Origin: Vermiphilus sp. | Lineage (GTDB): Bacteria; Ratteibacteria; UBA8468; B48-G9; DTJG01 | Direction of reading: 5' to 3' | Assembly: GCA_020722805.1 (NCBI GenBank) | Contig: DYKA01000008.1 | Location: 1-36,749 of the forward strand | DNA: 36,749 nt | Shown: positions 900-4,120 of the stretch, piece after piece | Numbering within the stretch: the stretch's first letter is position 1 | How the letters are laid out: the number at the start of each line of letters is the position of its first letter | Translations under genes and position numbers: made by a program | The notes under the pieces: generated by a model | Seen by the model: the letters and a program-made list of their open reading frames with translations, nothing else | The model's database searches: none | Told to the model about the DNA's origin: nothing

Positions 900-1553
900 A
901 TGGAATATAAATATCTTGGAGAACCACTTGTCAATTACATTGAGAATCTTTCTGCAAAGACCCCATGCCCCGGCGGTGGTAGTGCCTCAATCCTTTCACT
1001 TTCTCTAGCGAATGCTTTAATTCTTATGGTGTGTAATTTCACCGCGGAAAGCAAAAAGGTTGATGAAACATCAAGACAGATAGCAAAAGAGATGATCAGC
1101 AAGTCAAAAACCGTTCAGCAGCACCTTAACAACGGCATTGAACAGGACAGCATAATCTACCAACACATTCAGGAAACAGCAAAACTTGCCAGAAAAAATC
1201 CCAAGAATCAAAAATCTTACCATGATGCACTAAAAGACGGAATTGACCTTCATATAAGAATGCTTGACTTCTGCGGCAAAATGCTGGAATGGAATGAAAT
1301 TCTACTTGAAAAGGGAAACCCATATCTTATAAGTGATGTTGGTGTTTCATCTTCACTGATTCTGGGAGCCATAGAAGCAACAAGAATAAACATTTTCATA
1401 AACCTGCGTGAAATTGCAGATGAAAACTATGTGTCTGAGGTTCTTGACCGGGTTGAAAATCTTTACAGGATTCTTTCAAAAAATTCACAGAGAATAATTT
1501 CATCTGTCGGGAAGAAAATTCTTTCAAACAAAGGACATACGGAGGAAAAATGA
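900..1553 (+). CDS. fchA: Methenyltetrahydrofolate cyclohydrolase (FchA, FTCD_C family)
   Basis: 217 residues, the size of a stand-alone cyclodeaminase/cyclohydrolase domain. The N-terminal TPCPGGGSAS glycine-rich segment (about residues 21-30) and the following helical region are typical of the FTCD_C fold, which in bacteria includes the methenyl-THF cyclohydrolase FchA and formimidoyl-THF cyclodeaminase. Adjacent folD and fhs favour the cyclohydrolase: 5,10-methenyl-THF plus water to 10-formyl-THF, or the reverse. The C-terminus overlaps folD, and a GGAGG for folD lies inside the end of this gene, so the two are translationally coupled. AGGA at 886-889 is a plausible ribosome site. The neighbouring FolD lacks the usual cyclohydrolase lysine, which makes this protein the likely sole cyclohydrolase of the cluster. 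A histidine-degradation role is less likely because no hut genes are seen. Confidence 0.88.
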   Translation: MEYKYLGEPLVNYIENLSAKTPCPGGGSASILSLSLANALILMVCNFTAESKKVDETSRQIAKEMISKSKTVQQHLNNGIEQDSIIYQHIQETAKLARKNPKNQKSYHDALKDGIDLHIRMLDFCGKMLEWNEILLEKGNPYLISDVGVSSSLILGAIEATRINIFINLREIADENYVSEVLDRVENLYRILSKNSQRIISSVGKKILSNKGHTEEK

Positions 1554-2413
1554 TGGGACAAATCTTATCCGGGAAAGAGATTGCAGAAAAAATCAAGCAC
1601 GAGACAAGAATAGAACTGGAAAGGATTAAGGAAAGGGGTATAAGCCCCAAGCTTGTTGCCGTGCAGGTTGGAGAAAATCCTTCTTCTCAGGTTTATCTCA
1701 ATGCGCAGAAAAAAAACTGTCAGTCAATGGGAATTCTTTATGAGACAAAAAACCTTGAGCCGGGTATCTCGGAATCCGAGCTCATCAGTTTTATTGAAAG
1801 ATTGAACGGAGACAAATCAATTACAGGAATAATTCTGCAGCTGCCACTTCCTTCAGGGATGGATGTCAGAAAGGTTCAGTCAAAGATAGCCCCTGAGAAG
1901 GATGTTGAAGGAGTGAATCCTGCCAATCTCGGCTGGATTTTGTACGGCAGACCTGTACTTGCTCCATGCACTGCACTTGCGGTGAAGGAACTGATTGACT
2001 CAACAAAAGTTGACCTTTACGGCAAAGAGGTTGTAATGGTAGGACACAGCGACATTGTTGGCAAACCAGTTGCATTATTACTTGTTGACAGGTTTGCAAC
2101 TGTCAGTATCTGCCACATTGGAACAAGTGATAAAGGCATGCTTGAACAGCATGTAAAAAGAGCAGAAATACTTATTGTGGCTGTGGGCAAGGCGCATTTA
2201 ATAAAGGGAGATTGGGTCAGGGACGGTGCCATTGTTATAGATGTTGGAATAAACAAACTCGGGGACAAGATTGTTGGAGATGTTGAGTTTGAAACAGCAA
2301 TACAACATGCAAGCTGGATTACACCTGTACCAGGCGGCGTGGGACCTGTAACCACAGCCATTTTATTGAGAAACACGATAACTGCTGCAAAATTGATATC
2401 TTTTAACCTGTGA
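1553..2413 (+). CDS. folD: Methylenetetrahydrofolate dehydrogenase FolD, likely cyclohydrolase-deficient
   Basis: Cytosolic FolD family, 286 residues, close to the usual 285-300. It shows the QLPLPSG motif (Gln96), a Rossmann segment VVMVGHSDIVGKP and the C-terminal PVPGGVGPVT signature. In bifunctional FolD the motif Y-x3-K-x-K carries the catalytic lysine (Lys54 in E. coli, Lys56 in human MTHFD1). Here the aligned segment reads YLNAQKKNC, with Gln52 at that lysine. The second Asp of KDVDG (E. coli Asp121) is Glu119. Lys to Gln at this site in the human enzyme is known to remove cyclohydrolase but spare dehydrogenase activity. The protein is therefore predicted to interconvert methylene- and methenyl-THF only, leaving hydrolysis to adjacent FchA. 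GGAGG at 1541-1545 fits the ATG at 1553 better than the ATG at 1550. Confidence 0.93.
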   Translation: MGQILSGKEIAEKIKHETRIELERIKERGISPKLVAVQVGENPSSQVYLNAQKKNCQSMGILYETKNLEPGISESELISFIERLNGDKSITGIILQLPLPSGMDVRKVQSKIAPEKDVEGVNPANLGWILYGRPVLAPCTALAVKELIDSTKVDLYGKEVVMVGHSDIVGKPVALLLVDRFATVSICHIGTSDKGMLEQHVKRAEILIVAVGKAHLIKGDWVRDGAIVIDVGINKLGDKIVGDVEFETAIQHASWITPVPGGVGPVTTAILLRNTITAAKLISFNL

Positions 2414-2425
2414 GAAAGGAGGAAT

Positions 2426-4120
2426 ATGCTGAGTGACCTGCAAATAGCACAGAAAGCAGAAATAAAGGACATCAGGGAAATTGCTTCCAGCGCAGGCATA
2501 GACGAAGAATACCTTGAACTTTACGGCAGATACAAAGCGAAAATTGACCTTGCTATTATGGAAAAAATACAGAACAACCCGATGGGAAAATACATTGATG
2601 TTACTGCCATCACGCCAACACCGCTGGGCGAAGGGAAAACTGTAACAACCATTGGATTATCGCAATCCATAAACAAACTCGGAAAAAAGGTTTTCACCTG
2701 CATCCGACAGCCTTCACTTGGCCCCGTTTTCGGAATAAAAGGCGGAGCCGCAGGCGGCGGGTATTCGCAGGTTATTCCCATGGAAGATTTCAATCTACAT
2801 CTGACTGGAGATGTCCATGCTGTTGGACTTGCCCATAATCTTCTTGCTGCATTTATAGATAACTCCCTGCTGAAAGGCAATCCATTCAATATTGACCCAC
2901 TTTCAATCACCTGGCCAAGGGTCGTTGATGTGAGCGACAGGGCACTCCGTAATATTATCATCGGCCTTGGAGGAAAGGAAAACGGCATACCAAGAGAAAC
3001 AGGTTTTGATATCACTGTTGCATCAGAAGTAATGGCAATACTTGCCCTTGCCTCTGACCTTTTTGATTTAAGAAAAAGGCTTCAGAATATTATCATCGGT
3101 ACAAGCAAGAATGGAAAGCCTGTTTCGGCTTCTGATTTGCGTGCTGCGGGTGCAATGACAGTCTTGCTCAAGGACGCGATCAAGCCAACATTGATACAAA
3201 CTCTTGAACATACTCCTGTCCTGGTTCATGCAGGTCCATTTGCAAACATCGCGCATGGAAATAGCTCAATCATTGCTGATAAGATTGCAATCCGGCTTGC
3301 TGATTATGTTGTTACAGAAAGCGGATTTGGTGCTGATTGTGGATTTGAGAAATTTGCAAATATCAAATGCAGATACAGCGGGTTGAAACCCGATTGTGTT
3401 GTTATAGTCTGCTCAATACGTGCTCTGAAGATGCACAGCGGGCAGTTTAAAGTTTTACCGGGTAAACCGCTGGACAAAAGACTTCTTGAAGAGAATCTCC
3501 CTGCAATAAGAAAGGGGGCTGAAAATCTGAGGAAACACATTGAAAATGTGGGTTATTTCGGTATCCCTGCCGTTGTGGCAATAAACAAATTCCACACTGA
3601 CACAGAAAAAGAAATAGAGATTGTAAAAGAGATTGCGCTTGAGGCAGGCGCAGAAGCAGCAGAAGCAACCGATGTCTGGGCAAAAGGCGGAAACGGCGGG
3701 TTGCGACTTGCGGAAGCGGTCTTGAATGTCTGTGAAAAAGAGCACAACTTTAGATTTCTGTATCCTCTTGAAAAACAAATAAAAGAAAAGATAGAAATTA
3801 TCGCAACAAAAATCTACGGTGCTGAAAGGGTATCTTATTCAACATCTGCAGAAGAGAAAATCAAACTTTTCACAAAATGGGGCTTTGATAAACTTCCCAT
3901 ATGTATGGCAAAAACACACCTTTCTCTTACTCATGATCCGTCCCTGAAGGGTGCTTCAAAAGGATTCACTCTTCCCGTTGAGGATGTGCGGCTTTCTGCA
4001 GGAGCAGGCTTTATTTATCCACTGTGCGGAAAAATGAGAACCATGCCAGGACTACCCACAGACCCCGCAGGTGCCCATATTGATATTGATGAAAAAGGTA
4101 GGGTTATCGGGCTTTTTTAA
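2426..4120 (+). CDS. fhs: Formate--tetrahydrofolate ligase
   Basis: Makes 10-formyl-THF from formate, THF and ATP, the entry step of the methyl branch of the Wood-Ljungdahl pathway; it can also run toward formate plus ATP. 564 residues, near the family's usual 550-560. Visible signatures are the P-loop TPLGEGKTVTT (about 64-74), the glycine-rich KGGAAGGGYSQVIPMED block with FNLHLTGD, and ATDVWAKGGNGG near residue 420. A strong AGGAGG at 2417-2422 precedes the ATG by only three bases, and the protein start MLSDLQIAQ is family-typical. Together with fchA and folD it gives a formate to methylene-THF segment. No metF, CO dehydrogenase or formate dehydrogenase is in the window, so full acetogenesis cannot be claimed. 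Confidence 0.97.
   Translation: MLSDLQIAQKAEIKDIREIASSAGIDEEYLELYGRYKAKIDLAIMEKIQNNPMGKYIDVTAITPTPLGEGKTVTTIGLSQSINKLGKKVFTCIRQPSLGPVFGIKGGAAGGGYSQVIPMEDFNLHLTGDVHAVGLAHNLLAAFIDNSLLKGNPFNIDPLSITWPRVVDVSDRALRNIIIGLGGKENGIPRETGFDITVASEVMAILALASDLFDLRKRLQNIIIGTSKNGKPVSASDLRAAGAMTVLLKDAIKPTLIQTLEHTPVLVHAGPFANIAHGNSSIIADKIAIRLADYVVTESGFGADCGFEKFANIKCRYSGLKPDCVVIVCSIRALKMHSGQFKVLPGKPLDKRLLEENLPAIRKGAENLRKHIENVGYFGIPAVVAINKFHTDTEKEIEIVKEIALEAGAEAAEATDVWAKGGNGGLRLAEAVLNVCEKEHNFRFLYPLEKQIKEKIEIIATKIYGAERVSYSTSAEEKIKLFTKWGFDKLPICMAKTHLSLTHDPSLKGASKGFTLPVEDVRLSAGAGFIYPLCGKMRTMPGLPTDPAGAHIDIDEKGRVIGLF

Follow-up and report, generated by a model that had tools for sequence, protein, structure and literature searches.

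A FolD protein without the catalytic lysine of the cyclohydrolase and its FchA neighbour: a probable division of labour in Ratteibacteria

Does a FolD protein that lacks the lysine of its cyclohydrolase site leave this reaction to a neighbouring protein? In bifunctional FolD, Lys54 (E. coli numbering, used below unless stated otherwise) is described as the general acid/base in the cyclohydrolase reaction, with Gln98 positioning this lysine and Asp121 binding the pterin (PMC3338484). The stretch of DNA analysed here, 36,749 nucleotides from the Ratteibacteria member Vermiphilus sp. and hereafter called the window, carries a folD gene in which two of these three residues are replaced, flanked by genes for a candidate FchA cyclohydrolase and for the ligase Fhs. 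The features concerned are the following.

900-1553, + strand: fchA, methenyl-THF cyclohydrolase candidate, FTCD_C family, 217 amino acids (PF04961, E 1.9e-35)
1550-1553, + strand: ATGA, where the fchA stop overlaps the first possible folD ATG (sequence and ORF list)
1553-2413, + strand: folD, Gln54/Glu121 type, 286 amino acids (PF00763, E 3e-35; PF02882, E 6.8e-59)
1706-1708, + strand: CAG, Gln52, equivalent to E. coli Lys54 and human Lys56 (alignment to E. coli FolD, PDB 1b0a)
1838-1840, + strand: CAG, Gln96, equivalent to E. coli Gln98, retained
1907-1909, + strand: GAA, Glu119, equivalent to E. coli Asp121, the partner change
2045-2047, + strand: CAC, His165, in the cofactor loop GHSDIVG; nearly all Lys54 FolD have Arg or Ala there
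2426-4120, + strand: fhs, formate--THF ligase (PF01268, E 2.4e-262; NCBIfam NF010030, 821 bits, above the cut-off of 652)

Translation of positions 1553-2413 gives the motif YLNAQKKNC at the site that reads Y-x3-K-x-K in bifunctional FolD; the window protein's own Lys54 aligns with E. coli Lys56. The preliminary description had read Gln at the catalytic lysine, Glu at Asp121 and a conserved Gln98, and this was confirmed by the translation and by the 1b0a alignment, with which the E. coli sequence used for the numbering is consistent. Two marks of bifunctional FolD, the catalytic lysine and Asp121, are thus absent. The protein passes both Pfam cut-offs of the FolD family (121.4 bits vs 32.8 for THF_DHG_CYH and 198.2 vs 27 for THF_DHG_CYH_C), and scores under every listed NCBIfam equivalog or subfamily cut-off for bifunctional FolD (at best 309.6 bits vs 355). 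Its two domains and its fold family are those of bifunctional FolD, MTHFD1 and MTHFD2 (1b0a, E 4.8e-71; human 1a4i, E 2.6e-58), from which it differs by the missing Y-x3-K lysine and by Glu in place of Asp121. Chance and sequencing or assembly error were ruled out as explanations, since each of the 20 Ratteibacteria genomes tested encodes a single FolD, always Gln/Glu, together with an FTCD_C protein.

The adjoining gene had been described as encoding an FTCD_C cyclohydrolase translationally coupled to folD. Its product does match PF04961, as a standalone protein without FTCD domains (122.6 bits vs a cut-off of 24.5), and coupling is plausible because of the ATGA overlap, folD having two possible in-frame starts at ATG 1550 and ATG 1553. 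This FchA is a divergent member of its family, with 96 bits vs the 275 required by the FchA equivalog NF045657. The best solved structure is the methenyltetrahydrofolate cyclohydrolase 7vg4 (E 4.7e-21), cyclodeaminases being weaker (1o5h, E 5e-11; 1tt9, E 6.6e-7), and the protein is probably a cyclohydrolase rather than a cyclodeaminase.

In the arrangement that we propose, the window FolD would act as a methylene-THF dehydrogenase no longer able to carry out the methenyl-THF cyclohydrolase step, the overlapping FchA would supply that step, and Fhs, FchA and FolD together would interconvert formate plus THF, 10-formyl-THF, 5,10-methenyl-THF and 5,10-methylene-THF, in this order. The locus may possibly serve to assimilate formate, or to release it while gaining ATP through Fhs; the suggestion in the preliminary description that a specialised FolD could help to drive the formate branch one way receives no support from the comparison. 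The source genome, a 1.79 Mb draft, carries only one FolD; at 92% completeness it gave no match to the acetyl-CoA synthase CdhC, so that nothing there points to a Wood-Ljungdahl role. Within the phylum CdhC was matched in 6 of 20 genomes and in none of the other 14, the source genome included, which makes Wood-Ljungdahl capacity patchy. The named relatives are metagenome genomes of Ratteibacteria, Omnitrophota and TA06. Peptide patterns that contain Gln52 and Glu119 retrieved 78 Gln/Glu loci, a biased set from which no frequency was derived.

The replacements at positions 54 and 121 go together. Among 289 typed FolD sequences of the main set, all 188 with Lys54 have Asp121 and all 101 with Gln54 have Glu121, without a single mixed pair; in ten further sequences position 54 is Ala, Ile, Leu or Thr. 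Gln98 is present in 188/188 Lys54 proteins and in 76/101 Gln54 proteins, a relaxation that is expected if its task of placing the lysine is gone, and Tyr50 is retained in 92 of 95 Gln54 proteins. Other marks of the Gln/Glu type are Tyr or Phe at 65, Gln at 111, Val or Met at 123 and Ala at 143 and 145. When positions 54, 98 and 121 were masked, a single branch still separated the Gln/Glu from the Lys/Asp type (support 99), as in earlier trees (support 95 and 86). The Gln/Glu side covers Ratteibacteria, Omnitrophota, Planctomycetota and Pseudomonadota, and the type has one origin on this tree, which is unrooted and from which the relative age of the two types is not readable.

The preliminary description had proposed that replacement of Lys54 should correlate with the presence of FchA, and this proved to be so in three phyla by raw genome counts, uncorrected for kinship. 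Besides the 20/20 Ratteibacteria genomes, FolD was found in 54 of 58 Omnitrophota genomes; the 50 proteins read comprise 49 with Gln54 and one with Leu54, all with Glu121, and 49 of these 50 have FchA in the same locus. The Planctomycetota sample consisted of 148 genomes with a completeness of at least 90%, 141 of them with FolD. FTCD_C occurs there in 65/67 genomes that have only Lys54-less FolD vs 38/72 genomes that have only Lys54 FolD (Fisher 7e-10, uncorrected for kinship), and the last 12 genomes typed, all bearing FTCD_C, were Lys54-less without exception.

Not every FTCD_C domain can be equated with FchA, as a check for PF02971 revealed copies fused in FTCD in Planctomycetota. Fused FTCD is usually an enzyme of histidine breakdown. 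With standalone FTCD_C only, the proportions are 34/52 Lys54-less vs 16/72 Lys54 genomes; the genomes whose FTCD_C is solely the fused form number 22 with Lys54 and 16 with Gln54. In the latter 16, which have only a Gln/Glu FolD beside fused FTCD, the cyclohydrolase step would fall either to FTCD as a second function or to a different enzyme.

Pseudomonadota led to a wider rule. FTCD_C is rare in this phylum, with 14 matches in 299 genomes, 13 of them above the cut-off, and seven of these 13 genomes have no FolD match, as expected for users of MtdA plus Fch. Among the FolD typed, at least 14 genomes have a Gln/Glu FolD and no FTCD_C. Lysine replacement in genomes devoid of FchA, which the preliminary description had named, if common, as evidence against its proposal, is therefore real, and a rule of FchA only is ruled out; yet all 14 also have a separate Lys54 FolD, directly adjoining the Gln/Glu protein in three of them. 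What such a FolD requires would thus be a cyclohydrolase from elsewhere, whichever of the two sources provides it. In 48 more genomes that have a single FolD and no FTCD_C, this FolD always retains Lys54, Gln98 and Asp121. Tandem pairs of a Lys54 and a Gln54/Glu121 FolD were seen at four loci, among them plasmid p-SCP4 of Ponticoccus alexandrii (L348:5087-6861), where the order fdhF-fhs-folD(Lys)-folD(Gln/Glu)-tdm lies in a cluster for methylated-amine catabolism.

Lys54 has also been lost elsewhere, three changes of state (about three independent losses) being needed on the tree. Collinsella aerofaciens FolD has Ala54/Phe98, with FchA 2 bp upstream; Acetoanaerobium noterae FolD has Ala54/Phe98/Asp121, with FchA elsewhere, beside fhs; and an Ala54/Phe98 FolD adjoins FTCD_C in one Pseudomonadota genome. 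Fusobacterium vincentii has a second Gln54 type, Gln54/Asn98/Asp121, with FchA in the same record; Fusobacterium, which the tree puts on the Lys54 side, is the sole break in the 54/121 pairing that we saw. Some Planctomycetota FolD have Ile, Leu, Thr or Ala at position 54, and FTCD_C is present in all of these genomes. Three Planctomycetota genomes encode very divergent FolD proteins on a long branch, with Ala54, Tyr or Phe98 and Glu121. Full-length FolD is also encoded in a phage collection, for example by giant Prevotella Lak phages.

Across these groups a Lys54-less FolD is nearly always accompanied by another candidate cyclohydrolase, either FchA/FTCD_C or a Lys54 FolD. The comparison supports the division of labour first proposed from the window, once FchA is broadened to another source of cyclohydrolase, and we consider it very probable, judging from sequence, that the window FolD is a dehydrogenase only and that FchA carries out the cyclohydrolase step. 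Loss of Lys54 would remove the cyclohydrolase activity and leave the dehydrogenase; the human K56Q enzyme has reportedly lost the former and not the latter. Several observations count against this reading, among them the 16 Planctomycetota genomes whose FTCD_C occurs solely within FTCD. The silkworm MTHFD mutant K53A keeps about 75% of its cyclohydrolase kcat/Km (0.097 vs 0.13; PMC6443876 Table 2), a simulation study of MTHFD2 left the catalytic role of the lysine open (PMC9173628), and at least four Lys54-less genomes lack FTCD_C as well as any typed Lys54 FolD, although these are drafts in which absence weighs little.

The strongest competing explanation, which we nonetheless regard as rather unlikely, is that the Gln/Glu type differs chiefly in its cofactor or substrate (NAD in place of NADP, for instance), the lysine change being secondary. 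It is favoured by the His that replaces Arg or Ala in the GHS[DE]IVG cofactor loop of 67/101 Gln54 vs 0/188 Lys54 proteins, and by the Pseudomonadota, where a Gln/Glu protein beside a Lys54 FolD must offer something besides cyclohydrolase. This His is, however, absent from a third of the Gln54 proteins, E. coli FolD itself has Ala at the position, and the link with FchA is left unexplained. A changed cofactor preference is possible all the same, and since the two changes do not exclude each other, both may be real.

That the Gln/Glu FolD is still bifunctional, Glu121 and a remodelled pocket replacing the lysine and FchA being an extra cyclohydrolase or a cyclodeaminase, appears improbable. The strict Gln54-Glu121 pairing would fit such a conserved pocket, and the residual activity of the silkworm mutant and the few genomes devoid of any other candidate point the same way; but Gln98 is relaxed in Lys54-less proteins only, another cyclohydrolase accompanies them across phyla by two different routes, and losses to Ala, Ile or Leu keep the same company. 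Least probable is shared ancestry alone, in which one old operon or lineage would carry both Gln/Glu FolD and FchA although neither depends on the other in function: the type does form one branch and its adjacency to fchA is confined to Omnitrophota, Ratteibacteria and single cases, but in the Planctomycetota genes checked FolD and FTCD_C co-occur though usually on separate contigs, the type without FchA (Pseudomonadota and genome G184) has a Lys54 FolD every time, and the pattern is repeated in the other losses of Lys54.

Splitting the two reactions between FolD and FchA is known in kind. The trio FolD, FchA and Fhs of C. perfringens (Aluri et al. 2016, Microbiology 162:145) is the same as in the window, whereas Acetoanaerobium, the member of the Clostridia read here, carries the Ala54/Phe98/Asp121 replacement, unlike that of the window. 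The C. perfringens FolD is reportedly a monofunctional dehydrogenase, with FchA as the cyclohydrolase. The MtdA plus Fch system of methylotrophs likewise places dehydrogenase and cyclohydrolase on separate proteins and uses the same FTCD_C family (7vg4) for the second step, but MtdA belongs to another dehydrogenase family, the window dehydrogenase being a FolD with both Pfam domains. Yeast Mtd1 (1edz) is a FolD-family, monofunctional, NAD-dependent methylene-THF dehydrogenase without cyclohydrolase; it is remote from the window FolD (E 7.7e-16), eukaryotic and not paired with FchA. In the open papers searched we found no description of the Gln/Glu subfamily or of the wider rule. A more far-reaching view, which we put forward only tentatively, is that Gln54/Glu121 FolD represents an old separate subfamily of dedicated dehydrogenases with a rebuilt pterin site and a changed cofactor loop, widespread in Omnitrophota, Ratteibacteria, Planctomycetota and plasmids of Alphaproteobacteria, paired with FchA or with a tandem ordinary FolD (fdhF-fhs-folD-folD-tdm), and moving methylene/methenyl-THF with a cofactor or in a direction unlike that of the bifunctional enzyme.

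For the family as a whole, the natural double variants help to ask which residues make a cyclohydrolase, where the published mutants contradict one another. The Lys54/Asp121 vs Gln54/Glu121 distinction provides a simple sequence marker for metabolic models and for the choice of C1-assimilation enzymes. As far as sequence can tell, entire groups now labelled as bifunctional FolD, comprising all 50 Omnitrophota proteins read and about half of those of Planctomycetota, probably have a single function.
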